Source: Streptomyces ferrugineus
GTDB taxonomy: Bacteria > Actinomycetota > Actinomycetes > Streptomycetales > Streptomycetaceae
DNA: 64,000 nt
Assembly: GCF_015160855.1 (NCBI RefSeq)
Contig: NZ_CP063373.1
Span: 2,232,001 to 2,296,000, forward strand
Reading direction: 5' to 3'
Shown here: positions 7,128 through 37,770 of the stretch, one piece after another
Position numbering within the stretch: position 1 is the stretch's first letter
How the letters are laid out: the number at the start of each line of letters is the position of its first letter
Notes under the pieces: generated by a model
Told to the model about the DNA's origin: nothing
The model's database searches: none
Seen by the model: the letters and a program-made list of their open reading frames with translations, nothing else
Translations under genes and position numbers: made by a program

Positions 7128-7498
7128 GGGGCTTCCCGAGGAACGTCCGGGCTCCACAGGGCAGGGTGGTGGCTAACGGCCACCCGGGGTGACCCGCGGG
7201 ACAGTGCCACAGAAAGCAAACCGCCCGGCGCTCAGGCGCTGGGTAAGGGTGAAACGGTGGTGTAAGAGACCACCAGTGCCCAGGGCGACCTGGGCAGCTA
7301 GGTAAACCCCACCCGGAGCAAGGTCAAGAAGGAGACACCCCGGTGTCTCTGCGCGGACGCTCGAGGGCTGCCCGCCCGAGTCCGCGGGTAGACCGCAGGA
7401 GGCCGGCGGCAACGCCGGTCGTAGATGGATGGCCGTCGCCTCAGGGGCCGCGAGGACCTTGAGGAACAGAACCCGGCGTACAGCCCGACTCGTCTGCC
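7091..7498 (+). ncRNA. rnpB: RNase P RNA (M1 RNA), bacterial type A
   Basis: Catalytic RNA of RNase P, which matures tRNA 5' ends. Seen directly: the universally conserved core GAGGAACGTCCGGGCTCC (CR-I region) near 7137, ACAGTGCCACAGAAA near 7200, GGTAAACCCCACCCGG near 7301, and the 3' conserved AGATGGATGGCCGTC near 7423. P1 is formed by 7091-7102 pairing with 7483-7494 (11 of 12 positions). The length of about 408 nt fits Streptomyces. Its last 27 bases coincide with the left copy of the island attachment repeat, so the natural downstream region now lies 30 kb away. Confidence 0.96.
7472..7498 (+). repeat. Left attachment repeat (attL) inside rnpB
   Basis: 27 bases starting CCCGGCGTACAGCCCGAC and ending CTCGTCTGCC. 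It is identical to 37744-37770 and forms the 3' strand of the rnpB P1 helix. The flanking base differs on each side, so the match is exactly 27 bp. Confidence 0.85.
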
Positions 7499-7638
7499 GA
7501 CTGGGGCTTCTGATCAGCGAAAGTACTGGTCAGGGGCCCTGATTGGTAGATCGGGGGGCAGAGCCATCCCGTTCCGCACCGGTCCAAACCGGACTGCACG
7601 GCTACGAAAGTAGCGACGAAAATCGGAGGGCCGCTGCT

Positions 7639-7911
7639 GTGGCACGCCCAGGAATTGAGGCGGCGGCCGGAGAGCTCGGCGTCCTGCTGCGCACCCGCGA
7701 CCATGCGGCCGTGCCGGTGATCCTTGACCGACTCGACGCACTTGCTGCTGGCGTGGTCCGCTCGGAAGCGGACCGGACGGTGGCGCTGGGCATCCTCCAC
7801 GGCAAGATCGACTCCGCCACCGACAAGGGGGAGAGTCCGCGCCTCACCGAACGCGACCTTCCACGCGTCTCGAGCGTGTCGACGCGGCGGACGGGACACT
7901 GGCGCACGTGA
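7639..7911 (+). CDS. Hypothetical protein, 90 residues
   Basis: A short unrecognised reading frame just inside the left end of the island. GTG 7639 is preceded by CGGAGGG at a suitable distance. The product is mostly helical in appearance (GIEAAAGELGVLLRTRDHAA, then VILDRLDALAAG) with a basic tail, and no catalytic motif is visible. Upstream (7499-7638) is a non-coding stretch containing the 13-bp palindrome TCAGGGGCCCTGA at 7530-7542. The 207 bp that follow, up to the helicase stop, hold no supported gene. It could be a remnant of a longer gene or of the element's integration module. Confidence 0.35.
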   Translation: MARPGIEAAAGELGVLLRTRDHAAVPVILDRLDALAAGVVRSEADRTVALGILHGKIDSATDKGESPRLTERDLPRVSSVSTRRTGHWRT

Positions 7912-8118
7912 GGAAACGCGATGAGGCGCCCGAGAGGAGCAGTTTGCCGTCGCGCGACAGCGGATCTAGATCACGGCCGAGCACCTGCGCACGGTGGTGG
8001 GCAGAGCGGTGGACTCGTTGGGGAGCGTCGGCCACGGCAGAGGCTCTTCTTGCCGAGGCAAGGTGCGCCTGTGCCCGGTGGGCGTCGTGCGTGCACTGAG
8101 CGCTGCCACGTGTACCGT

Positions 8119-11100
8119 TTACTGCACGCCGTCAAGGATCCGCCAGACCGTCCGGTAGGCCGTTCCTTTGGCCCCGAGGACCGACTGCCACGCGGCATCT
8201 GGAAGCGCGGCCAGCCGGGCACGGGCGTCGACGGGCCGGGTGCGGGCCTGGTCGCCGACGACGGCCAGGGCGAGGCGGCCGGCTGCCGACCGTGGCACTC
8301 CCGCTAGCCGCATCGCGATCGCGTCCTCGGAGCGCACGCCGTAGAAGGCGTACGACGGGATGTTCCGCAGCTCGCGCTGGGTCTCGACGGGTAGCGTCGC
8401 GAACTCCTGCCCGAGCGTCAGCGACTGCAGCGCCGACAGCCCCCAGGACACCGTCGGTGCCATGTCACCGAAGAGCCGCTGGCAGCACTTGGTGATCGCC
8501 TTGAGGCTGTCGGACTCGCCTGGCTTCTTGAAATGGTCGGCGGCCAGCTGCCGTACGGACGCGCCGTTCACCCAGTCCTGGATGACGCGGGCGATGTAGT
8601 CGCCACTGCGTCCCTCGTGTTCGTCCGTGATCTCGTAGAGGCTCTCCCTGAGCTCGGGCACCTCGAGCATCACCCCGACCAACTGGGCCAACGGCCTGCG
8701 GTCGCCCTCGAACAGAGAGGTGTACCAGACCTCACGGTCGATGCGCGCATCGCTCAGCCGCTTCAGCGTGCCCGCAACGCTCTCCCACGAGAAGCCCGTG
8801 CTGTCCACGAGTCCCAGCGCCTTGCCCGAGAGACGTTCCGCGTACTCCCGTACGCTGCGGGTCAGTTCGGCCGCCCAGCCGCTGTTCACCCGGCGAAGGC
8901 TCTGGAAGCCGAGGGTGCCGCGCAGGACCTGCTCGATCTCGTCGGCGAATTCCTCGTGGTCCCCGATCTGCCGGTACGTGTGGGCCAGGTACTGCACGAA
9001 GGCGGACCACTCGGGAAGGGCCGCCAGCGTGTGCAGATCGAGATGGCCGTACGAGGTCATGGCCCTGTCCACCATGTCGATGAGCGTGGAGTTCAGCTCT
9101 GCGACTTGGCGGCCCACGAAGTCCCGGAGTTTCCGGGCCCGTTCCTCGTCGGTCGCGGCCAGCGCGATCAAGCCCACCTCGCCCTGCTCGACGCGGCCCG
9201 CCCGCCCCGCCAGGTTCCAGAAGTCCGAGGCTGGGATATCGGTCCCGTACGGGAACTGGTGTGAGGCCAGAACGACGTTCGCCACGGGGAAGTTGACGCC
9301 CTGGGCGATGGTCGTCGTGGACACCAGGTGCGCCAGGTCCCCTGTCTCCATCAGGTATTCCGTCAGGACGCGGATGTCATCCGGCAGGCCGCGGTGGTGG
9401 ATGCCGACACCCTTGGCGAGCAGCCTCCTGAGCGGGAAGTCCGCGCCGAACTCCTCTTCGACCACGTCCTGCACCGCCCGCAGGTCCTCGCCGACCGGGG
9501 GCATGTCGGCTCGGTCGCCCGCGATCTGCTGGGCGATCGACCAGGCGAAGTCCGGCCGCTGGGCCAGCGTGATGGTCTGCCCGCGGTCGGCGAGGACCGA
9601 GGCCGTCGCCGCGGCCAGTTTGCCGGGACTGCCTGCCTGGGACCATGACAGGCCGAGCGGCCGGTACCTGTCCAGGGGCAGATCGTCGGGCACGCTGAGC
9701 GTTCTCCGGCTGGTGACGAGGGTCTCCAGGTTGACTCGGAATCCTCCCTTGCCCGTGGTCCGTTCGCGGTGGGCGAGTGCCACGATGCGGTCGTTCGGTG
9801 TCCAGTCCACCGACAGCCCGACCGACTGCCGGCTGCCGCTGTCCAGCCACTCGGCGATGGCGTCGCCGTTGTCAATGAAGGGAGTGAGGAGCAGGAAGCC
9901 CGCGTCCTGGGCCTCCCGATTGACCGTGGCCAGCAACAGCTCGAGCTTGATCCCGCGCTTGTCCACGCCGAGGTGGTGTGCCTCGTCGGCCACCACCAGA
10001 CACAGCGGACGCCCGATCCTCTCCTGCCAGCCGGCCCGGAGCAGCAGGTCGAGCTTCTCCGGTGTGGACACCAGCACCCGGAACTGCCGCTCGCTGCGGT
10101 CCGTGAGCATGTCCTCTTCCAACCCGTCGAACTCCAGGGCGGGACTGACCCGTTCCACCCCGATCCCGAGGTCGGCGAAGTCGCGGCGCAGGCGACGCGT
10201 CACCTGGTTCACGAGCGCCCGGTTCGGGGCGACGTAGGCCACCCAGCCTTGCTGCTTGTCGTAGGCGTTGAGGGCCTGGATGATCCGGAACTGGGCGATC
10301 AGGGTCTTGCCCGCGCTGGTGGGCAGGCTGACCACCACACTGCGGTGCGCCGTGCGGATCAGGCCTTGTTCGGCGAGAGCGACACGCTGTGGCGGCAGCA
10401 CCTCGAAGATCGGGCGTGGTCGTCCCCGGTTGACCAGGGAGGCGACGAATGCGTTCACCTCCGGGCTGACCGCGCGTGCCACCGTCCACAGGCTGTTGTC
10501 GATGATCTGGTCCGCCGTGGCGGTCAACAACCGTACAAGGACTTCCAGATCGGGGTCCGAGGAGGCCATGGCCGCTTCCAGCGCACGATCGCAGTGCGAC
10601 TGCACGCGCTCGCGCACGCCGAAGTGACGGCTGGGGCGCTTCTCGCGCATGAGATGACCGGTGGATAGGTATTCGGCCAGCAGCTCCGCCGTCTTGAGCA
10701 GGTGGTAATGGGCGGCCAGCGACCAGGCGGCCGGCCGGGCATCGTCCCCCGTCGCCGTGAGATACGCCTCCTCCCGTTCGATCTGCTCGCTCCTCAGCCG
10801 GGCGATGAGGTGATCCAGGGCGTCCAGGTCGTCCCAGCCTCGCTTGCGCAGCAACAGCAGCCACGCGTCGGCGGTTCCGCGCCGCACCCGGGTCTCCCAG
10901 TCCTCCTCGAGGTCCGCGGCGGAGGGCAGTCGGACGTCCGCGAGCAGCCGGGCCGCGAGCGGGGTCTCGTCCGCGATCCAGCCCAGACAGGCCGTGCGCA
11001 GCAGTTCGAGACGCGCCTCGGCGGAATCGCCCCGGGGCAGCCGGGCCCGCGCCAGGACGAACATCTGCTCGCACAACCGGCGCGTGGACTCCGCCTTCGG

Positions 11101-11304
11101 ATCCTCCGCGATCGCATCCCAGGCCAGTAGGTCCAGGGCGTCCACCGCGAAGTCGACAGCCTCCCCGCTGTCCGGGGAGCCTTCGGGAACCTCCCCGTCG
11201 ACCGCCCGCAGGGCGGAACGGATCAGCACACGCTGCGCCCTCTCACCGGCATCCTCCACGAGGTCCGGGTCCAGGGCGCCTTCGAGCCAGCCGAGGTCAG
11301 CCAA
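8119..11304 (-). CDS. Ski2-like DEAH helicase, HamB-like (Hachiman-type defence)
   Basis: A 1061-residue superfamily 2 helicase. Motif I is SLPTSAGKTLIAQ near residue 335, motif II ADEAHHLG near 440, motif V LVSTTTIAQGVNFPVANVV near 660 and motif VI NLAGRAGRVEQGEVG near 700. The AGRAGR form and the wide spacing are typical of Ski2-like enzymes. The first 300 residues are helical without a known domain, and the last 350 are a further helical region. It is coupled to an upstream nuclease-like gene (8-bp overlap). This nuclease-helicase pairing matches Hachiman, where HamB is an ATP-dependent helicase controlling HamA; DISARM or BREX helicases fit less well because their partner genes are absent or already present elsewhere. 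Confidence 0.7.
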   Translation of the reverse strand: MADLGWLEGALDPDLVEDAGERAQRVLIRSALRAVDGEVPEGSPDSGEAVDFAVDALDLLAWDAIAEDPKAESTRRLCEQMFVLARARLPRGDSAEARLELLRTACLGWIADETPLAARLLADVRLPSAADLEEDWETRVRRGTADAWLLLLRKRGWDDLDALDHLIARLRSEQIEREEAYLTATGDDARPAAWSLAAHYHLLKTAELLAEYLSTGHLMREKRPSRHFGVRERVQSHCDRALEAAMASSDPDLEVLVRLLTATADQIIDNSLWTVARAVSPEVNAFVASLVNRGRPRPIFEVLPPQRVALAEQGLIRTAHRSVVVSLPTSAGKTLIAQFRIIQALNAYDKQQGWVAYVAPNRALVNQVTRRLRRDFADLGIGVERVSPALEFDGLEEDMLTDRSERQFRVLVSTPEKLDLLLRAGWQERIGRPLCLVVADEAHHLGVDKRGIKLELLLATVNREAQDAGFLLLTPFIDNGDAIAEWLDSGSRQSVGLSVDWTPNDRIVALAHRERTTGKGGFRVNLETLVTSRRTLSVPDDLPLDRYRPLGLSWSQAGSPGKLAAATASVLADRGQTITLAQRPDFAWSIAQQIAGDRADMPPVGEDLRAVQDVVEEEFGADFPLRRLLAKGVGIHHRGLPDDIRVLTEYLMETGDLAHLVSTTTIAQGVNFPVANVVLASHQFPYGTDIPASDFWNLAGRAGRVEQGEVGLIALAATDEERARKLRDFVGRQVAELNSTLIDMVDRAMTSYGHLDLHTLAALPEWSAFVQYLAHTYRQIGDHEEFADEIEQVLRGTLGFQSLRRVNSGWAAELTRSVREYAERLSGKALGLVDSTGFSWESVAGTLKRLSDARIDREVWYTSLFEGDRRPLAQLVGVMLEVPELRESLYEITDEHEGRSGDYIARVIQDWVNGASVRQLAADHFKKPGESDSLKAITKCCQRLFGDMAPTVSWGLSALQSLTLGQEFATLPVETQRELRNIPSYAFYGVRSEDAIAMRLAGVPRSAAGRLALAVVGDQARTRPVDARARLAALPDAAWQSVLGAKGTAYRTVWRILDGVQ

Positions 11305-12118
11305 GGTCGCGCACCCCCACGTGCTGGGGCCACGTGGTCATGGCCACCGGAAGGTACCAGGCCGTCAGCAGGGCGTGCATCGGTTCGACGACCGTCTTCG
11401 CCAGATGGGCGGCGCGGTCGCCGAGATCCTTTTCCTGCGGTGTCGTGTCACGCACCAGACAGCCGACGAGCTGGATGTCCTTGCCCTGCGACTTCACCCA
11501 GCGGTTCACGGCAGTACGGTAGGCCGCCTTGTGCTCCGGCGTCCGGCAGCGGAAGTTCAGCCACTTCATGAGCGTGAGGTGGTCGTCCTTGCACGACAGC
11601 CGCTTCAGCTGCTCGATCATGCCCTTCGAGCCGACCATCACGCTCGGCGGGCAGTCCTCCTGGGAGGACGACTTGACCTCGCCGAACAGCAGCCGTGCCG
11701 AACCGTCCGCCACACATAAACCGACCAGATCGGCACCCGGCAGGCTCGCCTTGCGGGTACGCCGGTCCCGGGCGCCGTCCCACACCCACAGCGCACCGTG
11801 CCAGTGTTCCAGCAGCACCTCGGCGAGCGCCTCGCCGACCTGCCACGGCAGGGGCTCGGGCTCGGCCTCCAGAAGGGTGCTGATGAACTCGGTCTCCATG
11901 TCCGTGGCGGCCAGGGAACGCAGCCCGGTGAGGAACTCCCGGGTGGCCTCCAGATCGCCCACCCGCTCGGCCCACGGCCCGGCCGCCAACTCCCGCATCA
12001 CATTGGTCGTCAGCTCGACGCCGCTCCATGACACGGCCCCGTCCGAACCGCCGTACACCTCGATCCCGCGCGAGACGCGCGGCACGGCGCCGCCGACGGC
12101 GCTGCTTTCCCCCACCAC
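11297..12118 (-). CDS. PD-(D/E)XK nuclease-like protein, HamA-like (DUF1837)
   Basis: A 273-residue protein with a nuclease core: GADLVGLCV near residue 130 supplies the Asp, and LLFGEVKSSSQ near residue 148 supplies the Glu-x-Lys. Homologous HamA proteins (DUF1837) are DNA-cleaving effectors kept in check by their HamB helicase. The gene immediately precedes and overlaps the helicase gene, which supports this assignment; without a profile search the family call remains moderate. I chose GTG 12118, preceded by GGAAGGA at 7 bp, over the ATG near 12266, because the extra residues from that start are low-complexity Arg/Gly/Pro sequence. Confidence 0.55.
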   Translation of the reverse strand: MVGESSAVGGAVPRVSRGIEVYGGSDGAVSWSGVELTTNVMRELAAGPWAERVGDLEATREFLTGLRSLAATDMETEFISTLLEAEPEPLPWQVGEALAEVLLEHWHGALWVWDGARDRRTRKASLPGADLVGLCVADGSARLLFGEVKSSSQEDCPPSVMVGSKGMIEQLKRLSCKDDHLTLMKWLNFRCRTPEHKAAYRTAVNRWVKSQGKDIQLVGCLVRDTTPQEKDLGDRAAHLAKTVVEPMHALLTAWYLPVAMTTWPQHVGVRDLG

Positions 12119-12326
12119 CCGTACATCCTTCCCCCACAAGGCGCCGGTGCGCCGTCCCCGTGCGACCGTCCCGTGACCTGGCCGGCCCGGGTACGGGCGG
12201 GAGCCGGGGCGAGTGGTGATCGCGACCACTCCTGGGACCGACGGTGTGATCAGAATTCTCTCCATCTCCCCGCCGACTTGTCCACGCCGTGTGTCCGCCT
12301 GTGGACGGACTGTGCCGCATTCGCAG

Positions 12327-12773
12327 TCAGAGGAGTGGGAGGCATGCCCAGACGGTCTTGCCGGAAGGCGGGTACGGAGCGGTGCCCCAGCGCGTGGCGA
12401 GTGCGTCGACGAGCAGCAGGCCGCGGCCGGACTCGGCGGTGGGATCCGCGGGGTCGGTACGGGAGCGTGGCAGGCGGTCGCCTCGTGAATCGGCCACTTC
12501 GACACGGAGTGTGTCCGGGGCGTCCAGGGCGAGCGTGACACGGAAGCACCGGCCTCTCACCCGGCCGTGGGTCACCGCGTTCGCGGCCAGCTCTGCGACG
12601 ACCAGGGCGGCGGACTCGCTGACCGGGCAGGCGGGCGGCCAGCCCCATTCGGTGAGCTGTTGCACCGTGAGAAGCCGGGCGAGGCGGGCGCCGCGAGGGG
12701 TGGCGCTGAGGAGTTGGGTGAAGTGCCGGGTGGGGTGGGTGGTGGGTTCAGGGGTGGAGATTTGTGACTTCAT
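12327..12773 (-). CDS. ATP-binding protein (HATPase_c, anti-sigma-factor kinase-like)
   Basis: A 148-residue single-domain GHKL ATPase of the RsbW/SpoIIAB-like type abundant in Streptomyces. The N box ESAALVVAELAANAVTHG lies near residues 55-72 and the G boxes VADSRGDRLP and SGRGLLLVDALATRWG lie near 98-130. These proteins are usually paired with a divergently encoded XRE regulator and a DUF397 protein, exactly as here. The ATG at 12773 lies 122 bp from the proposed XRE start. Between its end and the nuclease gene (12119-12326) I see no gene; its end is about 200 bp from the HamA-like start, so co-transcription on the minus strand is possible. Confidence 0.82.
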   Translation of the reverse strand: MKSQISTPEPTTHPTRHFTQLLSATPRGARLARLLTVQQLTEWGWPPACPVSESAALVVAELAANAVTHGRVRGRCFRVTLALDAPDTLRVEVADSRGDRLPRSRTDPADPTAESGRGLLLVDALATRWGTAPYPPSGKTVWACLPLL

Positions 12774-12895
12774 GTCACAGAGCGTGGTCGGGTCGCTCTA
12801 CCCTGACCAGGGAGTTCCTCGGTACGGAGGGTGCGTGTACCGGTACGGACAGTATCCCGTACGAGGTGTCGGCCGTGACCTTATGGGGTGTTGGT

Positions 12896-13747
12896 GTGTC
12901 GGAGACGGCGGAGACGTACGACGAGGGTGACCAGGGCAGCGACCTGAACAGGGCCGTCGGCAAGCAGGTCAAGGTGCTGCGGGAGCGGGCGGGATTCACC
13001 CAGCGGGAGTTGGGGGACCGGCTCGGGTACGGCGAGGATCTCATCTCCTCGCTGGAGAGGGGGAGGCGGACGCCGCAGGCGGAGTTTCTGGTGGCGGCCG
13101 ATGAACTGCTGGATGCGGGGGGCTTGTTGAAGGCCACGATCGAGGATGTGGAGAAGGCCAAGGCGAGGGCTCGGGTGAGGCACCCTGCGTGGTTCAGGGA
13201 TTATGCGCGGTTGGAGCGGGAGGCTGTTGAGATCAACTTCTTCAGCATGGTTACGGTCCCGGGCCTGTTGCAGACCGAGGACTATGCTCGGGTCACGTTC
13301 ACTGTGCGGCAACCGTTGTGGGCAGAGGGGACCATTGAGCAACGGGTGGCAGCGAGGATGGCTCGTCAGGAGATCTTGACTCGTTGGCCGCCGCCGATCG
13401 TCACTGCGGTGATCGACGAGGCCGTGCTGCGACGTGAAATCGGGGGGAGGAAGATCCAGCAGGAGCAGCTGCGGCACCTGCTGAAGGTTGGCCGACTGCG
13501 CAGTACGACGCTGCAAGTCCTGCCTCTAAGGTGTGACGAGAACCCTGGTGTGGATGGACCGTTCGTCCTGTTGACTCCCAGGGGGAAGCGGCAGGTGGCC
13601 TACCTGGAGGTGCAGGGCGCCAGCCACTTGATCACGAACCCGGACGAGGTGCGTAACATGGCCGCACGCTATGGAGCTATCCGTGGGCAGGCCCTCACGC
13701 CGCGCGAGTCCCTTGCCCTGATCGAGAACTTGCTGGGGGAGCAATGA
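12896..13747 (+). CDS. XRE family helix-turn-helix regulator with DUF5753 domain
   Basis: A 283-residue regulator. The HTH lies near residues 22-75 (VLRERAGFTQRELGDRLG, EDLISSLERGRRTPQAEFL), followed by the Streptomyces DUF5753 domain with FSMVTVPGLLQTEDYAR and a C-terminal LLTPRGKRQVAYLE block. I set the start at GTG 12896 (VSETAETYDEG) because GGGG lies just upstream; longer in-frame versions would include a rare TTA leucine codon at 12881. Its stop overlaps the start of the DUF397 gene (ATGA). Such pairs act as developmental or toxin-antitoxin-like switches in Streptomyces, but the target here is unknown. Confidence 0.88.
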   Translation: MSETAETYDEGDQGSDLNRAVGKQVKVLRERAGFTQRELGDRLGYGEDLISSLERGRRTPQAEFLVAADELLDAGGLLKATIEDVEKAKARARVRHPAWFRDYARLEREAVEINFFSMVTVPGLLQTEDYARVTFTVRQPLWAEGTIEQRVAARMARQEILTRWPPPIVTAVIDEAVLRREIGGRKIQQEQLRHLLKVGRLRSTTLQVLPLRCDENPGVDGPFVLLTPRGKRQVAYLEVQGASHLITNPDEVRNMAARYGAIRGQALTPRESLALIENLLGEQ

Positions 13748-13944
13748 GTACTGCGGAACCTGCCCGCCTCGTCTGGGTCAAGAGCAGCTACAGCGGAGGC
13801 GAAGGCGGTGAGTGCCTGGAGGCTGCAGCCGCACCCGGCGCCATCCACATCCGCGACTCCAAGGCCCCCGCCGAAGCCCACCTCACCTTCCCCGCCCCTC
13901 AGTGGTCCGCGTTCGTCCGGTACGCGGTCCGCTACGTCAAGTAA
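13744..13944 (+). CDS. DUF397 domain-containing small protein
   Basis: 66 residues with the family signature LVWVKSSYSGGEGGECLEAA, then IHIRDSK and a C-terminal WSAFVRYA. DUF397 proteins are encoded next to XRE/DUF5753 regulators and are thought to be their small partners. Translation is coupled to the regulator through an ATGA overlap. The pglW gene follows 94 bp later on the same strand, so read-through from this module into the BREX operon is possible. Confidence 0.9.
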   Translation: MSTAEPARLVWVKSSYSGGEGGECLEAAAAPGAIHIRDSKAPAEAHLTFPAPQWSAFVRYAVRYVK

Positions 13945-14038: not shown

Positions 14039-17000
14039 ATGGAGAAGGACCGGTGGACGACCGTCACCGAGTCTGAATACGGGCACGAGAAGCGGGGCCT
14101 GGAGTCGATCCGCAAGCAGCTCCCCGGCGGCAAGCCGTGGCGAGCCTGGTCGAACTTCACCTTCACTGCCAATTCGGGCCATCCTCGCGAATGCGACCTC
14201 CTCATTGTCGCTCCCGGCGGTGTATGGCTGGTCGAGCTTAAGGACTGGGTCGGCCGCCTCTCGGCTCCGTACGGCACCTGGGTGCAGACGAAGGGGAACG
14301 ACGAAGAGATCGACCACGGCAACCCGCTGCACCTCCTGAACAGGAAGGCCGCGCAGCTGTCAGGCCTGCTGGAACGGGCGGCCGGGCCCAAGGACCCCAA
14401 GGTGTGGATCCGGGAAGCCGTCTGCATCACCAATCCCAAGCTGCGCGTGGAGTTGCCGCCGCATGAGCGGCAGAACGTGTTCACCATCGCCGAGCTGGTC
14501 AAGGAGCTGGGCCGGCCGCCACGCGACGAACGATCCAAGATCAATGAGGGTCGTTCGGCCAACATCGCCAAGTGGCTCAAGAAGGCCGGCATCCGTCCGA
14601 GCGAGGCCGAGAAGTGGGTCGGCGCCTACCGCCTGGACAAGGAGATCGCCTCTGGCCCGACCTGGGTGGACTACGTCGGTCACCATAAGGAGCTGCACGA
14701 GACCGTCCGCGTGCGCGTCTACCTGCGCGAGCGGGGCTCGACCGACGAGGCGCGCGAGTCCGTGGAGCGGGCGGCGCGCCGCGAGGCAGCCGTGCTCAGC
14801 CGCTTCAAGCACCCGGGGGCCGCGAAGTACAAGACCTTCGAACCGGCGGGCCACCCCGCCGGGCCCGCCCTGCTCTTCGAGCACGACATGCGGGCGATGC
14901 GCCTGGACGAGTACATCCGCCGCCATGGGGACGGGCTTACCATCCAGGCCCGCCTGGGACTGCTACGGCAGCTCGCCGAGACGATCCGCTCGGCGCACGC
15001 CGGCCTGCTCCACCACCGGGCCCTCGCCGCCCGCTCGATCGACGTGATTCCGGGCCCGCGCAAGCCCGGCGAGGAAGAGGCGTGGCTCCGTCCGCGTCTG
15101 GAGATCGCCGACTGGCAGGTGGCCAGCGCCCGCAGCTTCGGTTCGAGCAGCGGGGCGCGCGCCGCCGCTGCCCTCGCCCCGACAGCGCTGTCCGCCACGC
15201 ACGTGGCCGAGGGAGCCGGGCCGTACCTGGCGCCGGAACTGACCGCCACCCGGCCCGACCCGGTGCTCCTGGACGTGTACGGCCTGGGCACGCTCGCCTA
15301 TCTGCTGGTCACCGGCCGCCCTCCGGCATCCAGCCAGGCCGAGGTCCTGGCGATGCTGCGCGACGGCGACGGCCTGACGCCGTCGGCCGTCGTCGACGGC
15401 CTGACGGACGACGTGGACCTGCTGGTGCACGCTGCCACGGCCTACAACCCCTACCACCGGATGTCCTCCGTCGACGAGTTCCTCGAACTCCTCGCCGACG
15501 CCGAGGAGTCGGTGGGCATCCGGCATGCGCAACCCGCCGAGCCCGCGGCTCCCGCCGCCGCAGCCGGACCTGCCGAGGCCCAGGCCGAGCCCGAGCCGCA
15601 GGAAGAGCCCGATCCGCTGGAGGCCGAGCCCGGCGACGTACTGGGCGGCGGTCGCTGGCAGGTCCGTCGGCGCCTCGGCACGGGCTCCACCTCGCGAGCC
15701 TTCCTCGTCCGGGACCTGCGCGCGGAGGAGTTCCGGACCCGGCCGCTCGCCGTCCTCAAGGTGGCCGTCACGGACCGCAGCGCCTCCATCCTGGACGGCG
15801 AGGCGCAGGTGATGCGCCGGATGCGCGCCGACTCCCGGGTGATCAACCTGGTCGTGGACGAGCCGCTGCGGATGGGCGAGAAGACCGTGCTCGCCGTCGA
15901 GTACGTCGGCGACGAGAAGGCGGAACTCGCCGACGACGACGGCGCGAGCGGCAAGATCCGCGCCCGCGAGGAGACCCTCGCCCGCTGGCTCCGCGAGCTC
16001 GGCGCCATGGGCACGGAGTCTCTGGAGAAGTACGGCGACCAGCTCTTCGGCGCCGTCGACTTCCTCCAGGGCGAGGGTGTGTGGCACCGGGACATCAAGC
16101 CCGACAACATCGCCATCCGCAAGCGCCCCAACGGCACCCGCGAACTGGTCCTGATCGACTTCTCCCTCGCCTCCTACCCGGCCAGGGAGACCGCGGTCGG
16201 CACTCGGGGGTACATGGACCCCTTCATCGGCGGCCCGGTGAACAGGCGGGCGGTCTACGACGACCAGGCCGAGCGGTACGCCCTCGCGGTCACCCTGCAC
16301 CAGATGGCCTCCGGCGAGCTGCCCCGCTGGGGAGACGGCTCGGTCACGCCCGAGATGACCGACCCCGAGGAGATGCCGCACCCGGAGATCGCCAAGGACG
16401 CGTTCGACGACCCGGTGCGCAAGGGGCTGCGGCGGTTCTTCTGCCAGGCACTGCACAGGGATGCCGGTAAGCGGTACGCCACGCTCAAGGACATGCACGA
16501 CGCGTGGAAGAAGGTCTTCCTCGACGCGTCCCAGCAGGCCGTGCCCTCGTCGCACGGGAAGGGACACGGCCTCGACGAGGCGGTTGACTCCGAGGCGGTG
16601 CGCGACGAGCGGGCCGCCGCCGCCCAGCTCGACACCCACCTGTCCCTGTCGGGCCTGACCGCCGCCGCCGAGTCCTTCCTGTACGGCCTGGGGATCACCG
16701 AGGTCGGACAGCTGCTGGACCGCAGCGAGCGCGATCTGATCAACAAGCCGGGCCTGGGCGCCAAGACCCTCGCCGACATCCAGCGCCGTGTCCGGGAATG
16801 GCGGCGCCGTCTGCGCGCCGCGGACCTCAACCCGCTCACCGGGGAGGGCCGCAAGGCCGCCAAGGCCGAACTGGACGCGGCCAAGGCCGAGTCGGGCCTG
16901 GAGCGCAAGGTCAGCGACCACCTGGGCCTTGCTTCGGGCGACCGTTCCGCCCTGCGGCGGGTCTCCCTCGACGCGCTCGCCACCCGTCTGGTGCCCGAGC

Positions 17001-22437: not shown

Positions 22438-22442
22438 CACCG

Positions 22443-30637: not shown

Positions 30638-32796
30638 CCACGAGCGCAACAGCGGACGCCGACCCCGTCGACCGGCTCGATCCGGTTCTCCTCCACCACA
30701 TCGTCAACACCCTCGGCTGGCCCGGCCTCAGGCCCCTGCAATCCTCGGCGATCGGACCGCTCCTCGACGGCGAGGACGCGGTACTGCTGGCGCCGACAGC
30801 AGGCGGCAAGACCGAGGCCGCCGCATTCCCCCTCCTCACTGCCATGGCCCGGAACGGCTGGTCCGGCACCTCGGTTCTCTACCTCACTCCTCTGCGCGCC
30901 CTGCTCAATAACCTCCAGCCACGCCTGCACGCCTACGCCCAGTGGCTGGGGCGCACGGCGGCGCTCTGGCACGGGGACACGGCCGAGGCTGAACGGCGGC
31001 GCCTGCGCTGCGAGCCGCCGGACATCCTCCTCACCACACCGGAATCCCTCGAAGCACAGCTCATCAGCGTCAAGACCGACCACGCCCTGCTGCTCGGCGG
31101 GGTGCAGGCGGTCGTCGTGGACGAGGTGCACGCCTTCGCCGGGGACGACCGCGGATGGCACCTACTGGCGGTCCTGGAGCGGCTCCAGCGGCTGACCGGC
31201 CGGCGGCTGCAACGCATCGGCCTGTCCGCCACGGTCGGCAACCCGAACGAACTCCTCGCCTGGCTTCAAGGCTCCGCCCGCGGTCGAACGCCCGGTCAGG
31301 TCATTGCCCCCGGCGTCGACACCGGCCCCGCGGCCACCACAGCGGAACGCCAGCCGCACACCGCTGAACCCCCGCTCGGGGACATCGAGTTGGACTACGT
31401 CGGCTCGCTTCCGAACGCGGCCACCGTCATCTCCGCCCTCCACCGGGGCGAGAAGCGCCTCGTCTTCTGCGAGTCCCGCCGGCAGGTCGAAGAGCTCGGG
31501 CAGGCGCTCCGAGCACGCGGCGTGACCGTGTTCCTCTCGCACTCGTCCCTCTCGGCGGCCGAGCGTCTGCGCTCCGAGGAAGCCTTCGGGCAGGCGCGCG
31601 ACTGCGTGATCGTCGCCACCTCCACGCTCGAACTCGGCATCGACGTCGGTGACCTCGACCGGGTGATCCAGATCGACTCTCCCGCGACCGTCGCTTCCTT
31701 CCTGCAACGTCTGGGCCGTACCGGACGTCGGCCCGACAGCACGCGCAACTGTCTCTTCCTCGCCACCTCCCACGAGAGCCTCCTCCAAGCGGCCGGACTG
31801 CTGACCCTGTGGGGCAGACACTGGGTGGAGCCTGTCACCGCACCGCCGGGGCCGCAGCACCTCGTCGCCCAGCAGCTGCTGGCCGTCGCCCTCCAGCGCC
31901 ACAAACTGCCCGCCGCGGACTGGCACGAGGAGTGGAACGGCCTTGCTCCCTTCGACGCGTCCGCCCGACCTGTTCTGGAGCACCTCCTCACCCAAGGATT
32001 CCTGGAACAGGACAGCGGCATCTACTTCATCGGCGAACAGGCCGAGAAGCGCTTCGGTAGACGGCACTTCATGGACCTCACCGCGTCGTTCACCGCACCG
32101 CCCCAGTTCACAGTCCTGCACGGGCGTGCGGAGATCGGGCACACGGACCCGGCTCTGCTGGTCGAGGAACACGAGGGACCCCTGCGGCTGCTGCTCGCCG
32201 GACGCAGCTGGCACGTGACGTATGTGGACTGGCGTCGGCATCGGGTCTTTGCCGAGGCCGCCGAGTCGGGCGGCGTCGCCAAGTGGCAGACCGGCACCGT
32301 CCGCGGGCTGTCGTACCGGCTCGCCCAGGCGATGCGGGAGGTGCTGCTCGGTGCCGACCCCGCGGTCGGTTTCACTCGACGCGCACAGGCCGGTCTCGTG
32401 GAACTACGGGAAACGGAAGGCCGGTTCGCTCACCCAGAGGCGACTCTGATCACCCGCAGCGGACGCGACGTACGGTGGTGGACCTGGGCCGGCTTCCGCG
32501 CCAACGCGACCCTCACGGCGTGGCTGGCCGACGCGGTCGATCCGCTGCAGCGGCCCGCAGACTTTTACGTCCGGCTCCGCCACGACCTGACCCGAGAAGA
32601 CTGGGACCAGGCACGAAACACGCCACGGAAGGACGAGCTCCCACAGGTCACTGCGGCCGCCGTTCGCGGACTCAAGTTCTCTGCCGCCCTCCCCGATGAC
32701 CTTGCCACCAGCGTGCTGGCCGCTCGGCTCGCCGACAAGGACGGGGCCGATGCTGTGCTGTCCCGACGTGCGCGCTGGGAGATCGAACCGGTCTGA
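30634..32796 (+). CDS. brxHI: BREX system DEAD/DEAH-box helicase BrxHI
   Basis: A 720-residue Lhr-like superfamily 2 helicase. Motif I is LLAPTAGGKTEAAAFPLL near residue 54, motif II VVVDEVHAFAGDDRG (DEVH) near 159, motif III GLSATVG near 195, motif V VATSTLELGIDVGDLDRVIQ near 330 and motif VI QRLGRTGRRPDS near 358. The C-terminal 330 residues match the extended region of BrxHI. It completes the six-gene BREX type 2 set. A hairpin with the core TGCGCCC-TTTCG-GGGCGCA lies about 45 bp after the stop, so the BREX operon probably ends here. Confidence 0.92.
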   Translation: MTTSATADADPVDRLDPVLLHHIVNTLGWPGLRPLQSSAIGPLLDGEDAVLLAPTAGGKTEAAAFPLLTAMARNGWSGTSVLYLTPLRALLNNLQPRLHAYAQWLGRTAALWHGDTAEAERRRLRCEPPDILLTTPESLEAQLISVKTDHALLLGGVQAVVVDEVHAFAGDDRGWHLLAVLERLQRLTGRRLQRIGLSATVGNPNELLAWLQGSARGRTPGQVIAPGVDTGPAATTAERQPHTAEPPLGDIELDYVGSLPNAATVISALHRGEKRLVFCESRRQVEELGQALRARGVTVFLSHSSLSAAERLRSEEAFGQARDCVIVATSTLELGIDVGDLDRVIQIDSPATVASFLQRLGRTGRRPDSTRNCLFLATSHESLLQAAGLLTLWGRHWVEPVTAPPGPQHLVAQQLLAVALQRHKLPAADWHEEWNGLAPFDASARPVLEHLLTQGFLEQDSGIYFIGEQAEKRFGRRHFMDLTASFTAPPQFTVLHGRAEIGHTDPALLVEEHEGPLRLLLAGRSWHVTYVDWRRHRVFAEAAESGGVAKWQTGTVRGLSYRLAQAMREVLLGADPAVGFTRRAQAGLVELRETEGRFAHPEATLITRSGRDVRWWTWAGFRANATLTAWLADAVDPLQRPADFYVRLRHDLTREDWDQARNTPRKDELPQVTAAAVRGLKFSAALPDDLATSVLAARLADKDGADAVLSRRARWEIEPV

Positions 32797-32878: not shown

Positions 32879-32914
32879 TCCACACCGTCGCGGGGCAGTG
32901 TGGAGGGGGCCGCC

Positions 32915-33964
32915 ATGTCCGGACCGCTGTACGTTCCTGTCCTACCGATCCGCGCCCACGCGGTGGCCGCGGTCAAGGACCTCGCCCCGTGGGTCCGAGA
33001 CCGGACGTCCCCTCTCTGGACACTGCCGGTCATGACCGCTGAGGACGCCGATCAACTCAAAGTGGCGGTGGACAAGGAACTCCGACGCGTCGCGGCCGCG
33101 CAGAAATACACTGCGGCATGGCTGGACGCCCCGTACGCAGACCTCACCGCCGCCGCCTACGGGGACCTGCTCCACTCGTACTGGTCCCACACGGCGCTCC
33201 GCCCCGTCACGGGCCCTGATCTCCCAGCAGCGCACCAGACTGCGGCAGCGGACAGCGCCCTCCAGGGTGGCAGCAGCCTCGGCATACGCGTCCGGCTCCC
33301 CGACACCTGGACCGACGAACTCGCCGAACGCACGGCTGCTCTGCTCGCCCAGACGGATCCCGAGGTCCGGGTGGATCTCCTCCTCGACCTCCAGACAGTG
33401 TTTCCGGGCCGTCCCGACGCGGGCAAGGAAGCACTCCGCGCACTCGACGCACTGACCCAACTCACCTCGTGGCGCGTGATCGCCATGCTGTCCGGCGGCT
33501 TCCCGGACGACGTCGAGGGGCTCCTGGATCGAGACCGGGGCGACGCGGACCGCGCGGACTGGGACACGTGGCACGAGATAGGCGCGAGCGAGCGGTCGTA
33601 CGCGAAGCTCGTCCGCTACGGCGACTACGGCACACTACCCGCCCGCAACATCGGCAGGGCAGTGGACGACGGCGACCGGTCGCCATACGGACTGCTGCGG
33701 TACACGACGGAACGCACCTTCCTGCTCGCAAGGTTCTGGGCCGAGAAACGGGGCGAGACGGGAGCCACCCGCGAGGCGGCTCGTTGGATCACCGGATTCC
33801 CCGACTTCCGTGGCTCGGGTGCGAGTACGGGCGACCGCTGGTACGAGCAGTGCGCCCGAACCACGGGCGCCAAGGGCACGGGCAACGCTGGGACGTGGAA
33901 CACCGTGGGGAACATCCAGCACATGACTTATGTGGTCCGCTGCTTGTCCCGGGTGGCTGACTAA
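32915..33964 (+). CDS. T4 beta-protein family protein
   Basis: A 349-residue protein beginning LYVPVLPIRAHAVAAVKDL, which matches the opening of the Pfam Beta_protein family named after a phage T4 protein. Further shared features are the repeated FP-x-R-DA and W-R-V-I-A-M-L-S-G blocks, the RYGDYGT stretch near residue 235 and the C-terminal YEQCARTTGAKGTGNAG with a final WNTVGNIQHMTYV. The fold is a TIM-barrel-like shape in my reading; no enzyme activity is established. ATG 32915 follows GGAGGGGG. It lies directly downstream of brxHI in the same direction, so it may be a BREX accessory or an independent defence gene. Confidence 0.7.
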   Translation: MSGPLYVPVLPIRAHAVAAVKDLAPWVRDRTSPLWTLPVMTAEDADQLKVAVDKELRRVAAAQKYTAAWLDAPYADLTAAAYGDLLHSYWSHTALRPVTGPDLPAAHQTAAADSALQGGSSLGIRVRLPDTWTDELAERTAALLAQTDPEVRVDLLLDLQTVFPGRPDAGKEALRALDALTQLTSWRVIAMLSGGFPDDVEGLLDRDRGDADRADWDTWHEIGASERSYAKLVRYGDYGTLPARNIGRAVDDGDRSPYGLLRYTTERTFLLARFWAEKRGETGATREAARWITGFPDFRGSGASTGDRWYEQCARTTGAKGTGNAGTWNTVGNIQHMTYVVRCLSRVAD

Positions 33965-34608
33965 CCGCGCCCCGTGGTGGGCGGCGCTCTCTGAGACCGC
34001 TCAGCTCCTCCAGGCGACGCCCTTTCTCCTCGCTCGCGGTGGCGATTGCCTGCTTGAGGAGTGCTTGGGGTCTGTCACCGACTTGGCCCTGGCCGGCTTC
34101 GGGAGGTTGAGTGCCGCCTCGCCGTTGGGGTTTCCCGCCGCCGGATACGGCAGCGGATCGCGTCACGTCGCGTTCGCGCCGTCCATTGTCTGCTGCCCAC
34201 GGTCTTGCTGGAGTTGGTCTCGGAGGTTTTGATCTCCTCGTCGATGATCGGCCCGTGTCCACCCCGGCGACCGCGAGTTCGATCGGGGCAGGAAGGGGGT
34301 GCGGGCGCTGGTCGTGTGGGCGTGGGGCGCCCACGGAAGCGTCGTTCCCGACCCCACGCCACGTTCGGCTCGGCGGCACGTTCCGTGCTCTCCCGTCCTG
34401 TGTCTGATTTGCGTCGCCTCGCCGACCGTTGGCTCTAGTTGTATGAAAATCTGACTGCAATGTGGCATGGTCATGGCCTCAGTCGATCGTCGGGATCGGC
34501 GCAGAGGCAGGCGGTCACGGAGGAAGGCACTTGTCGAGGCACGAGGACAGCCGCAAGGACGACGTTCCTACCCCCCTCCACCGTCCGCCGCGGACAGCGT
34601 CCTTCGTG
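33965..34608. other. 644 bp without a supported gene
   Basis: Several open frames cross this stretch on both strands, but none has a convincing ribosome-binding site, codon bias or recognisable motif. The minus strand near 34030-34090 encodes a helix-like peptide (ALLKQAIATASEEKG) inside a frame otherwise rich in Arg/Pro, which may be a relic. Around 34441-34470 there is an unusually AT-rich patch (TATGAAAATCTG) that could hold the promoter of the DUF3883 gene downstream. Confidence 0.5.
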
Positions 34609-35547
34609 ATGGTCCACGTCGGTCAATCGCCCGAAACCCAGCGCAATCTGCAGTACGGGATCGAAACCCGGTCGTGGGGGTTCCCTCTGTGGAGGCCCGA
34701 GTATCGGTCCGCGCGCCCACGCTTCGCCCTGCTGGCCACGGGAGTGGGTCCGCGCGTACAACTCGACGTATGGAGTACCAAGAAGATCACTCTGTACCTG
34801 TTCGAAGTACGTGAGAACTTCTACGAGGCAGAGGCTCCTCACTGGCCGGACGAGGAAGCCGAGAACGCCATCAAGTACCCGGTGCGCTTCGGTATCGAGC
34901 CCTTGGCTGTACTCCACGACGCCCGTCTTGATGAGGACGGGCCGCTTGGTATGGCCGCCAGTGACGCCATACGTGTTTCGGGGACTCAGCGAGGCATAGG
35001 CATGCTCGTCGACATGGATCCGCAGCCGTTGCTCGATGCGGCAGGGATCCCGGCGAACTGGTCCGAACAGCAGACGGTGCCCCTGAACCACACGCCCGGC
35101 TTCACCGCGGAGCAGGTGAAGCCGCCCAAGCCGAGGAAGCGGCCTTCCGGTGGAGCGGGCTTCGTCTCCGACCCCAAGAAGCGCAAGGCCATCGAACTGC
35201 ACGCGGAGGACACGGCAGTCGCCCACTACGAGGGGGAGGGATGGACAGTCGAACGCCTTGGCAAGCCGTACGACCTCCACTGCACTCGTGGCGGGGAAGA
35301 GCGCCGCGTAGAGGTGAAGGGGACAACGGGAGCGGCCACGAGCGTCGATCTGACGATCAACGAGGTCGAGCATGCCCGAGACCCGCAGAACACCGTGGAC
35401 CTGTTTGTGGTCAGTGACATCAACGTGGACATGCGGACCGACAACTGCAAAGCGACTGGCGGCAGGGTGTTGCACCTTCATGACTGGGCGCCGGCTGATG
35501 AGGACCTGAGGCCGCGGAGCTTCGAGTACCGACTGCCACTCGCCTGA
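34609..35547 (+). CDS. DUF3883 (NO VEIN-type) nuclease-like protein with possible EVE/PUA-like N-terminus
   Basis: A 312-residue protein. The C-terminal 100 residues look like DUF3883: AIELHAEDTAVAHYEGEGW, then KPYDLHCTRGGEERRVEVKG near 220-236, where Asp and Glu-x-Lys form a PD-(D/E)XK-like site. The N-terminal 125 residues (NLQYGIETRSWGF, a central beta-rich part, then HWPDEEAENAIKYPVRFGIE) resemble EVE/PUA-like domains that recognise modified bases; this is a weaker call. A Pro/Lys linker joins the halves. I chose ATG 34609 because the upstream in-frame sequence is Arg/His-rich filler. A modification sensor joined to a nuclease would suit a type IV-like restriction role beside BREX. Confidence 0.65.
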   Translation: MVHVGQSPETQRNLQYGIETRSWGFPLWRPEYRSARPRFALLATGVGPRVQLDVWSTKKITLYLFEVRENFYEAEAPHWPDEEAENAIKYPVRFGIEPLAVLHDARLDEDGPLGMAASDAIRVSGTQRGIGMLVDMDPQPLLDAAGIPANWSEQQTVPLNHTPGFTAEQVKPPKPRKRPSGGAGFVSDPKKRKAIELHAEDTAVAHYEGEGWTVERLGKPYDLHCTRGGEERRVEVKGTTGAATSVDLTINEVEHARDPQNTVDLFVVSDINVDMRTDNCKATGGRVLHLHDWAPADEDLRPRSFEYRLPLA

Positions 35548-35628
35548 CTGCCCGGATGCACCTTCAGGGGGTTCCAGGAGCCTCGGGCCCCCTTGCCTTC
35601 GAGCCCACCGGCCTTATGGAGATCGTCC

Positions 35629-37503
35629 GTGCCTCTTCTTCGCATGTCCGCACGTGCGCTGTTCGATCGGTCCAGTGACGGAGCCCTCTTCGAGCGGCTC
35701 GCGCAGAAGTACCGTTCCGTGCTCTTCCAGAACCCGTCGCCCAGTGAACGCCGCTCGTGGGAGAACAGCCTTCCGGCCCTGGCAGAGGTTCTGTGCGACG
35801 CGGGGCTTGACGACATCGATGTGTTGATCGAGTACCGATTGCCCCTTACCAGCCTGCGCGCAGACGTTGTCCTTGCCGGCTCCCACCCCGCGACGGGCAG
35901 ACCTTCTTATGTCATCGTCGAGCTCAAGCAGTGGAGTGAAGCGCGCCTCGTTCCTGGCACTGACAACCTCTGCTTGGTAGCGGGCATGGGCAATCGGCCG
36001 GCTCTACATCCCGTGGCCCAAGTACGCCGTTACTGCGACTACCTGCAGGATTTCACCAATGTGCTGAGTGATCAGGAGGACGCCGTCGCGGGCGTGGCCT
36101 ATCTGCACTACGCAGTCGATCGAGATGTCAGTGAACTATTGAGATTGCCTGACGCGAGTGCACAACTTTTCACGGATACATCCCGCGGCGAGCTCATTAA
36201 GTACCTGCGGACCCGTCTTTCTGCCTTGGACGGTTCGCCAGAGGGAGATTCTCTCCTGGATAGCCCCCATGCTCCCGGTCGTCAACTAATGCGTGCCGCC
36301 GCGGCCGAGCTGATCGACGGCGGCGAGTTCCTCTTGATGGATGAGCAAGAGGTAGCGGCTCGTTTGGTGAAGCGGGCAGCAAACCTGTCGCGTCAGTCGG
36401 ACCAAAAGGAAGTCATAGTGATATCCGGGGGTCCTGGTTCGGGTAAGAGCATTATTGCGCTGCACCTCATGGGACACCTCGGGAGGAACGGTCGAAGTGT
36501 TGTCCACGCCACCGGCTCCAAGTCCTTCACCACCACTCTCCGGCACGTCGTCGGCACTAAGAACGGCCGCATTCCAAAGCTCTTTCGTTATTTCTTCGAC
36601 TTCACAAGTGCTGAACGAAACGGGCTGGACGTCTTGATCTGTGACGAAGCCCACCGCATTCGCCAGTGGTCGGCGAGGCAGGACACGAATGCCGGACATC
36701 GGAGCAGTCGAAGGCAAGTGGAGGAACTTATCGACGCAGCCAGGGTCCCCGTTTTCCTGCTCGACGAGCATCAGGTCGTGAGGCCGGGGGAGATGGGAAG
36801 TGTCGAGACCATCGACGAGGCTGCTCACGCGCGCGGGTGCATTGTTCGCCATGTCGATCTCAACAGCCAGTTCCGGTGCGGTGGCAGCCGCGCCTACGAA
36901 CACTGGGTCCTCCGTCTCCTTGGCCTTGAGCCCGGTGGTCCGATTCAGTGGCAGCCCGAGGAAAATTTCGAGTTGCTCGTCGCCGAATCGCCCCAAAAGA
37001 TGGAGAGCTACCTCCGCGGCCGGCAAGAATCCGGTTACACGTCTCGCATGACGGCGGGATTCTGCTGGCCGTGGAGTGATCCACGGACCGACGGCAGCCT
37101 GGTCGACGACGTGGTAATTGGGGAATGGCGCAGGCCCTGGAACCTCAGAGGTGAACATCCTTCAGGTGGGGCGCCCGTATCCTCCCTGTGGGCCACCGAC
37201 CCGTCGGGCTTCGGGCAGATCGGGTGCATTTATACGGCCCAAGGATTCGAGTACGCCTGGAATGGAGTGATATTCGGTCCCGACCTGGTGTGGCGCGGAA
37301 ACGGGTGGCGGGCTGTTCCTGGAGAGAGTAAGGACTACTCCGTGAAAAAGGCGACGCCAGAATCTTTCGGCCGTCTTATATGCAATACATGCAAAGTGCT
37401 GCTCACGCGAGGACTGGCCGGTACCGTACTTTACTCAACGGATCCCGAGACTCGGGCCATGCTGGCTGGTCTGGTTCCGACTGGGATAAAGCAGAGTCCG
37501 TGA
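35629..37503 (+). CDS. DUF2075-type helicase with N-terminal nuclease-like domain
   Basis: A 624-residue protein. The first 190 residues contain LRADVVLAGSH and YVIVELKQWSEARL (Asp near 80, Glu-x-Lys near 99), a PD-(D/E)XK-like pattern. The helicase part is DUF2075/superfamily 1-like: Walker A ISGGPGSGKSIIALHL near 265-280, Walker B LDVLICDEAHRI near 334, FLLDEHQVVRPGE near 377, and a C-terminal CIYTAQGFEYAWNGVIFGPD near 540 equivalent to the UvrD-type motif V/VI region. Many AT-ending codons set it apart from the BREX genes, suggesting a separate origin. GTG 35629 follows GGAG; ATG 35644 is an alternative. It is the last intact gene before attR and has no obvious partner other than the DUF3883 gene. 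Confidence 0.72.
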   Translation: MPLLRMSARALFDRSSDGALFERLAQKYRSVLFQNPSPSERRSWENSLPALAEVLCDAGLDDIDVLIEYRLPLTSLRADVVLAGSHPATGRPSYVIVELKQWSEARLVPGTDNLCLVAGMGNRPALHPVAQVRRYCDYLQDFTNVLSDQEDAVAGVAYLHYAVDRDVSELLRLPDASAQLFTDTSRGELIKYLRTRLSALDGSPEGDSLLDSPHAPGRQLMRAAAAELIDGGEFLLMDEQEVAARLVKRAANLSRQSDQKEVIVISGGPGSGKSIIALHLMGHLGRNGRSVVHATGSKSFTTTLRHVVGTKNGRIPKLFRYFFDFTSAERNGLDVLICDEAHRIRQWSARQDTNAGHRSSRRQVEELIDAARVPVFLLDEHQVVRPGEMGSVETIDEAAHARGCIVRHVDLNSQFRCGGSRAYEHWVLRLLGLEPGGPIQWQPEENFELLVAESPQKMESYLRGRQESGYTSRMTAGFCWPWSDPRTDGSLVDDVVIGEWRRPWNLRGEHPSGGAPVSSLWATDPSGFGQIGCIYTAQGFEYAWNGVIFGPDLVWRGNGWRAVPGESKDYSVKKATPESFGRLICNTCKVLLTRGLAGTVLYSTDPETRAMLAGLVPTGIKQSP

Positions 37504-37743
37504 GTGGGTGCCCCTTCGCCAACCACTTGGTTTGCCGGTGCATGGCGATTCCCACGTCGACCTGCAGATCGCCGAACTGCTGATCTCTGCAACGGGCAAG
37601 CGGACGGGCGGAGTCGTGGTGCCGGACCGGCGGCGGGGGTTGTCGGCAGCGGAGCTGTTCCAGGTCGCCGAGCCGGTGCCCAAGCCCGGACCGCCGCGTC
37701 CGGTGCAGCAGTGGTTCCAGGGTCGTCCCAAGCAGCAGCTGTG
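37504..37743. other. Right-end spacer of the island, no supported gene
   Basis: The 240 bp between the DUF2075 stop and the right attachment repeat hold open frames on both strands but no start with a convincing ribosome-binding site and no recognisable protein motif. This is where an integrase gene or its remnant might be expected for an element with this layout; nothing identifiable is left. Confidence 0.5.
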
Positions 37744-37770
37744 CCCGGCGTACAGCCCGACTCGTCTGCC
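37744..37770 (+). repeat. Right attachment repeat (attR), rnpB 3'-end duplicate
   Basis: An exact second copy of the last 27 bases of rnpB, in the same orientation, without the remaining 380 nt of that RNA. It is followed by CCCTTCGGGCTCCCGGGGCG, which can fold as GCCC-TTC-GGGC and probably represents the original rnpB downstream hairpin. The convergent Mce-associated gene ends 27 bp further on. Confidence 0.85.

Follow-up and report, generated by a model that had tools for sequence, protein, structure and literature searches.

The window considered here, i.e., the whole stretch of 64,000 nucleotides of Streptomyces ferrugineus DNA that was analysed, contains a complete class A RNase P RNA gene, rnpB (7093..7496, + strand; RF00010, 287.4 bits, model positions 1-367 of 367). 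Between this gene and an mce operon lies a 30.2 kb segment encoding a bacteriophage exclusion (BREX) system, and the subject of this work is the 3′ end of rnpB as a candidate attachment site for this segment and for other islands of the genus. The final 25 nt of rnpB and two further bases make up a 27-bp block (7472..7498, + strand; attL core) that is repeated exactly and in direct orientation at 37744..37770 (+ strand; attR core), the flanks of the two sites having no clear similarity. Such an exact copy, in direct orientation and about 30 kb away, had been proposed in the initial annotation of this DNA and is confirmed by sequence comparison. According to the structure line of RF00010, the block spans the 3′ strand of helix P1, in agreement with the earlier statement that the repeat carries this strand. 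In the whole genome (9,959,088 bp, one contig), the 27-mer occurs only at these two positions when up to three mismatches are allowed, and the reversed 27-mer used as a control has no site; the scattering over the genome that had been named as grounds for refutation is thus not observed. As in site-specific genomic islands, the end of the target gene stands as direct repeats at both borders. In helix P1 of the window's rnpB (7093-7102 with 7484-7493), the fifth pair is a C-A mismatch, which was considered as an imprint of a foreign att site and discarded as uninformative, being common to 44 of 48 rnpB rows (some from one genome). It is also present in L039, a locus with a terminator-like sequence directly behind rnpB.

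The use of this site was followed across 392 same-genus genomes (labelled G) from collections that hold one genome per species. rnpB was found in 391 of them, many with a second match. The sequence behind the gene is not conserved, contrary to the uniform content that would have spoken against an island: among 20 relatives with a single rnpB match, no open reading frame (ORF) family within about 7 kb downstream is common to more than four. Upstream of rnpB, an EamA homologue was detected by tblastn in 16 of 20 relatives (L023-L042). Further copies of the rnpB 3′ tail were sought in 55 genomes, picked by eye for at least two rnpB matches and no more than nine contigs and then searched again; a match counts as a tail copy when its query start lies at rnpB position 340 or beyond, so that pieces from elsewhere in the gene are excluded. 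This search returned 58 further tail copies, 23 of which, from 22 genomes, follow rnpB on its own strand at a distance of 3.3-116 kb. Within 150 kb of the gene, none lies downstream on the opposite strand and none upstream, a side-and-strand bias that the choice of genomes by match number should not create. By BLAST bounds, the tails start at rnpB base 374 in 21 of the 58 cases and at base 380 in nine, the 27 bp of the window being of the latter kind. Tandem islands with two tails each are present in L089, L057 and G123. Apart from these tails, one genome has a second full-length rnpB (L119, G156:C2:8893000-8905000) that is 85% identical to the gene of the window, its other copy being 91% identical, and 149 nt resembling the 3′ part of rnpB lie near the end of a 1.05-Mb linear plasmid of Streptomyces globisporus (L164, NZ_CP108665.1, 21331-23479). 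Extra rnpB copies are also mentioned in mycobacteria, in a passage that leaves them unexplained (PMC9569102).

A candidate enzyme for this site was found in islands of 97, 102, and 116 kb (G181, G125, and G245), in which the final gene before the far tail encodes a tyrosine recombinase of about 420 aa (PF00589), hereafter the rnpB integrase. A search of named genomes with this protein gave 24 loci, and in 20 of them a tail copy starts 81-114 bp past the end of the match. Relatives at E 1e-130 are present in 32 of the 392 genomes. Those at least 77% identical occur in 10 genomes (two over partial length), some of which are strains also among the 24 named loci, and the tail adjoins the gene in nine of the 10. 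In G213, a relative of 52-57% identity lies on the attL side, at a contig break, with 117 bp between its end and the 3′ end of rnpB, and in G084 a distant recombinase-like gene lies about 260 bp behind rnpB. At L057 (9898-11152) and L163 (1709-2960), a frameshift apparently interrupts the integrase of G081 and G193, whose match is split into two parts in separate frames. Identity with a known phage or plasmid gene was rejected: 338 phage and 16 plasmid records match, all at less than 60% identity. The side-and-strand bias and the integrase beside the tail go further than what the initial annotation had claimed. They also bear on the simplest alternative, a repeat that arose by chance or by a duplication unconnected with integration. 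No point in support of such an origin was found, and against it stand the uniqueness of the 27-mer in its genome at up to three mismatches, the 23:0:0 distribution of tail copies near rnpB in relatives and the integrase adjoining them. Its probability is practically negligible, and it was rejected on the uniqueness and the site bias.

The sequences flanking the cores (arms) contain recurrent words as well. The exact word CAGGTCA precedes the core by no more than 60 nt in 37 of the 56 distinct tail copies (the window included), at a spacing of 30 nt in 21 and of 19 nt in 11, the two spacings differing by 11 bp; many 30-nt examples were obtained through the integrase search and are not independent of it. 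Shuffled arms contain the word in 0.26 cases on average and three at most. A second word, GCWGGTCA or its complement, is present exactly within 70 nt in 13 of 55 arms behind rnpB and in 14 of 56 behind tail copies, compared with 0.26 on average in shuffles of the behind-rnpB arms. Judged by eye, the arms behind rnpB sort into a few kinds, and the left arm of the window, with a hairpin directly behind rnpB (7494..7549, + strand), is like the arms of other islands. With regard to arms of the helper type, the left arm of the window resembles one kind by eye, and the right arm has no CAGGTCA. The region 7494-7570 folds at -44 kcal/mol (z -4.87); for comparison, z is -4.60 and -1.87 in the islands L049 and L004, and -5.99 in the terminator-like sequence of L039. 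A canonical terminator in the left arm of the window was rejected despite the strong hairpin, as a terminator scan finds none and a T-run is absent.

At the right border, the mce operon of the window is reached 27 bp past attR at its end gene (37798..38535, - strand), the right chromosomal neighbour, which belongs to no Pfam family; upstream of this gene, mce genes at 42744-47699 encode MlaE permeases and Mce4_CUP1/MlaD proteins. The left chromosomal neighbour is an EamA transporter gene (6210..7127, + strand; PF00892). In relatives, the last mce gene is found downstream of rnpB, with its orientation unchanged, at very different distances: 0.3 kb in G155, 2.7 in G192, 4.5 in G119, 6.9 in G222, 7.1 in G332, 8.8 in G082, 12.4 in G001, 21.2 in G055, 21.6 in G064, 25.5 in G267, and 133 kb in G334. 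It is inverted, 13-52 kb from rnpB, in G139, G296, and G008. With only 0.3 kb separating rnpB and mce, G155 has a near-empty site. A decayed core with 19 of 27 matches adjoins mce in G155 and G064 (the shuffle background reaches 18), and in G082, G222, and G119 the core beside mce is at background level only (16, 17, and 15 of 27). A homologue of the 37798..38535 gene lies beside a tail copy in G323 and beside the decayed core in G155. In G323 (L117, G323:C1:1815000-1832000), the tail copy is about 60 bp from the mce end, but rnpB is about 5 Mb away, an arrangement that an inversion with a breakpoint inside an rnpB island would produce.

The intervals between rnpB and mce are filled differently. 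None of the named cargo genes of the window was found in G155, G082, and G119 at E 1e-10, and the interval of G064 has only a distant XRE match to this cargo. In G222, the interval retains a Schlafen (SLFN) gene and roughly the first 100 residues of PglW, apparently the remains of an island of the window's kind. The search for empty sites or other cargo at rnpB, suggested in the initial annotation, thus yielded the near-empty site of G155 and other fillings of up to 133 kb in relatives. The compact rnpB-mce junction expected after removal of the island holds in part: it is approached in G155, at 0.3 kb and with a decayed core, and a large part of the genus does not have mce next to rnpB. A DNA match to the mce-end gene at E 1e-20 is missing in 315 of the 392 genomes, and 25 of 58 genomes have no match to the mce permease at E 1e-60. 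As a general right neighbour of rnpB, mce was therefore rejected for the genus as a whole and kept for part of it.

The cargo of the window's island includes a complete BREX type 2 (Pgl) system, encoded in one block on the + strand: PglW with NERD and protein kinase domains (14039..18745; PDLC02512, 1352 bits; PF08378, PF00069), the methyltransferase PglX (18742..22437; PDLC02529, 1571.7 bits), the ATPase PglY/BrxC (22443..26348; PDLC02488, 1217.8 bits), PglZ (26345..29206; PDLC02565, 807.3 bits; PF08665), the ATPase BrxD (29276..30637; PDLC02494, 676 bits; PF10923), and the helicase BrxHI (30634..32796; PDLC02503, 1033.4 bits). On its left are an XRE-type regulator with DUF5753 (12764..13747, + strand; PF19054, PF13560), a small DUF397 protein (13744..13944, + strand; PF04149) and, on the - strand, PDC-M23B, a DEAD-box helicase related to Hachiman HamB (8119..11304; PDLC04531, 1355.8 bits; HamB, 182.3 bits), with the candidate defence protein PDC-M23A (11297..12541; PDLC04529, 298.8 bits). 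A Hachiman system was not identified: PDC-M23B is the best-scoring model for the HamB-like helicase, only PDC-M23A models match its partner and no HamA was found. To the right of BREX follow, all on the + strand, a Beta_protein resembling component C of PD-Lambda-2 and standing alone (32900..33964; PF14350; PDLC03983, 67.7 bits), a protein with a NO VEIN C-terminal domain (34462..35547; PF13020) and a Schlafen group 3 helicase (35593..37503; PF09848, 276.1 bits), relatives of which were found in other rnpB islands too. PD-Lambda-2 is incomplete, the C-like protein being its only component among the 14 window proteins scanned with PADLOC. The earlier description of the content as accessory defence genes only is borne out for all cargo that can be named and does not extend to about 7550-8118 and 37508-37741, which match no family. 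The right-end ORF (37508-37741) was rejected as a mobility remnant, having no homologue at E 0.01 and no Pfam family.

No integrase was detected in the window by Pfam (main ORFs), by tblastn with the rnpB integrase or with a hidden Markov model built from 11 tyrosine recombinases and run against all ORFs of at least 60 codons. Serine recombinases were not found by Pfam among the window's main ORFs, and only a crude motif was used elsewhere. Other islands are similar in this respect: no tyrosine recombinase was detected in 15 of the 16 islands analysed over their full length (3.3-30.2 kb, the window included), the exception being G084. The integrase-less islands include ATP-grasp peptide cassettes (TIGR04186, 04187, and 04188), with a maturase above the cut-off in L006, L009, and L010 and a partial one in L008; ATP-grasp peptide maturase genes, some with an associated methyltransferase, recur in L006, L008, L009, L010, and L051. 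Fic/VbhA toxin-antitoxin genes are located within the island, a few hundred bases short of the tail, in L004 (3405-4318) and L020 (6465-7381, the latter by similarity). A toxin-antitoxin gene as a rule beside attR was rejected, these two being the only such cases and the YoeB gene of L006 (2230-2490) lying just outside the tail. Larger, integrase-bearing islands encode lantibiotic dehydratases (L049), helicases (L046), and an MmeI-type methylase (L048), and the L045 island a radical SAM protein below family cut-offs. The cargo at the rnpB site in other genomes is hence not defence alone; it includes peptide-biosynthesis cassettes and a toxin-antitoxin pair.

BREX itself recurs at this site. 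BrxD (PDLC02494) was found in 87 of the 392 genomes, and 42 of its 93 matches lie on the contig of rnpB: 17 at 2.3-72 kb downstream, none within 150 kb upstream, and 25 further away. Draft assemblies favour near BrxD-rnpB pairs; among the genomes with no more than 10 contigs, a hand count places 11 of 38 BrxD matches near rnpB (34 genomes, the window included), compared with about 0.6 expected by chance when 150 kb of a 9-Mb chromosome are considered. BREX starts about 0.2 kb behind rnpB in G243, G083, G225, and G199, 118 bp past a second tail in G365, and 7-21 kb behind rnpB in G250, G204, G208, and G094; for G094 and G365, the stretch examined ends inside the BREX operon. BrxHI of G199 is followed by a tail at 2.4 kb. 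The gene order and orientation of BREX vary among the rnpB islands.

The repeats, the site bias, the integrase beside the site, the tandem islands, the variable cargo, and the recurrence of BREX can all be read from the genome sequences, and they suggest that the 3′ end of rnpB very probably acts as attB for integrative elements across Streptomyces and that the segment in the window is such an island. The attachment-site claim of the initial annotation is supported in particular by the near-empty or differently filled sites, the tail bias and the adjoining integrase. In the proposed mechanism, a tyrosine integrase would recombine rnpB with the copy of its final 27-36 nt that the element carries; the gene would retain the 3′ strand of P1 after integration, and the second tail copy would mark the far end. 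The left arm of the element would supply a new hairpin behind rnpB, which may end its transcription, and CAGGTCA may be an arm binding site.

Several observations weigh against this interpretation. As there is one genome per species, no pair of the same species with and without the window's island was seen. The expected tail is missing at four of the 24 integrase loci: none was found at L081, L090, and L094, and at L093 it lies on the opposite side and strand of the integrase. In G387, the sole exception among the relatives of at least 77% identity, the nearest listed tail is about 16.5 kb off, and relatives at 52-57% identity are mostly located elsewhere. In the window, the island has no detectable integrase of its own, the right arm is atypical in having no CAGGTCA, and the left arm has no exact GCWGGTCA; the best homologue of the rnpB integrase in the same genome is only 39% identical, with no rnpB tail within the surrounding 4.1 kb. 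Moreover, 35 of the 58 tail copies are found far from rnpB, and no more than a guess is offered for them, either a second hotspot or islands displaced in large inversions. These remote copies (G081, G194, G132, and G341 among others; L056-L062) are mostly 4-6 Mb away, 21 of them in the opposite orientation, and in four genomes they form pairs 23-79 kb apart. Finally, the rnpB-located BrxD rows are clustered on a BrxD tree (only six of 500 shuffles are as low) and eight of them are close kin. It follows that not every case of BREX at rnpB is independent and that kinship explains part of the recurrence.

This clustering can be taken further, to a reading in which BREX owes its place beside rnpB to old vertical inheritance, with the repeat as a remnant in a region that is just prone to rearrangement. 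The clustered label speaks for it, as does the grouping of eight of the 17 rnpB-located rows within a single cluster of 12 closely related ones. On the other hand, the quick tree of 44 rows (17 at rnpB, 27 elsewhere) requires nine changes between rnpB and other places, at least three of them forced by starred branches; the differences in BREX gene order and orientation, together with tails that have arm words at a fixed distance, also count against inheritance, which is regarded as improbable.

With integration as the preferred reading, the remaining question is how an island without an integrase reached the site. Most probably it entered as a passive element moved in trans by an rnpB-specific integrase, or as part of an element that later lost its own; its right arm either lost CAGGTCA or never contained it. 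The window's island looks immobile because no integrase and no usual right arm were found and no close integrase relative is present in the genome; it is probably fixed by now or was moved in trans. Transport of a passive BREX island with its own att sites, by the rnpB integrase of other elements, is put tentatively at a little short of an even chance. It would fit the integrase-less islands, which share the core and CAGGTCA with the integrase-bearing ones at 19 instead of 30 nt, a difference of 11 bp or about one helical turn, and it would fit the occurrence of both arm kinds in tandem in L089, L057, and L075. The right arm of the window is not of the 19-nt kind, however, the genome contains no close integrase of the rnpB family, and the movement in trans is itself conjectural. 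Alternatively, the island used this att site as a large autonomous element with its own rnpB integrase, and a deletion at its right end removed both the integrase and the right arm, a history considered possible but rather doubtful. In its favour, the window's right arm has no arm word, G365 retains no more than a C-terminal scrap of the integrase near its tail, and the SLFN gene and PglW remnant (about 100 residues) in the rnpB-mce interval of G222 indicate that islands decay there. Yet 14 other end-to-end islands (3-27 kb) likewise yielded no tyrosine integrase and several keep the 19-nt arm word, which is more easily explained if they never had one.

Islands at tRNA and tmRNA genes have an essential structural RNA gene as target, a direct repeat at the far end, tandem arrangements, and an integrase near one end. 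The rnpB islands are alike in all of these features and differ in that the target is the RNase P RNA gene, with an identity block of 27-36 nt covering the 3′ strand of P1, and in that the integrase is located at the far (attR) end. Cis-mobilizable elements (CIMEs) are integrase-less islands flanked by att sites. The window's island resembles them in consisting of attL and attR flanks without a detected recombinase, and is unlike them in its atypical right arm and in a trans-mobilization that is only surmised. Integration at tRNA and tmRNA genes is classic (PMC4482086), and the vcr islands of Dehalococcoides are located at ssrA (PMC3146451). The dusA integrases, found in both prophages and islands, form a family directed at a single conserved gene of tRNA maturation (PMC4482086). 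The rnpB islands are similar in having one conserved target for tRNA maturation per integrase family; unlike rnpB, dusA encodes a protein and is targeted at the 5′ end. BREX type 2, or Pgl, was first described in Streptomyces coelicolor (PMC12839542). The system of the window has the same PglW, PglX, PglY/BrxC, PglZ, BrxD, and BrxHI in one block, and differs from Pgl in its position at rnpB between att copies and in its company of PDC-M23, Beta_protein, NO VEIN, and Schlafen proteins. rnpB does not occur in the papers on BREX or actinobacterial defence that were searched for it (including PMC12839542), and no description of it as an attachment site was recognised among the papers listed by full-text searches of an open-access library, subscription papers and island databases being outside this coverage.

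In its broadest form, the proposal is that rnpB represents a third class of essential structural RNA genes used for attachment, after tRNA and tmRNA genes, with its own family of tyrosine integrases. It would be a preferred site of Streptomyces BREX type 2 systems, many of the islands being integrase-less and moved in trans, and each would bring rnpB a new P1 strand and 3′ hairpin. Taken as a whole, this proposal may be right or wrong with equal likelihood. The rnpB integrase and its 36-nt site could become a tool for genome engineering, and the att arms of the integrase-less islands make the trans-mobilization of defence islands directly testable. If the interpretation is true, the RNase P RNA gene would join the short list of RNA genes that serve as attachment sites, together with a named integrase, and would offer a fixed genomic address at which to look for Streptomyces BREX type 2 systems and peptide-biosynthesis cassettes.

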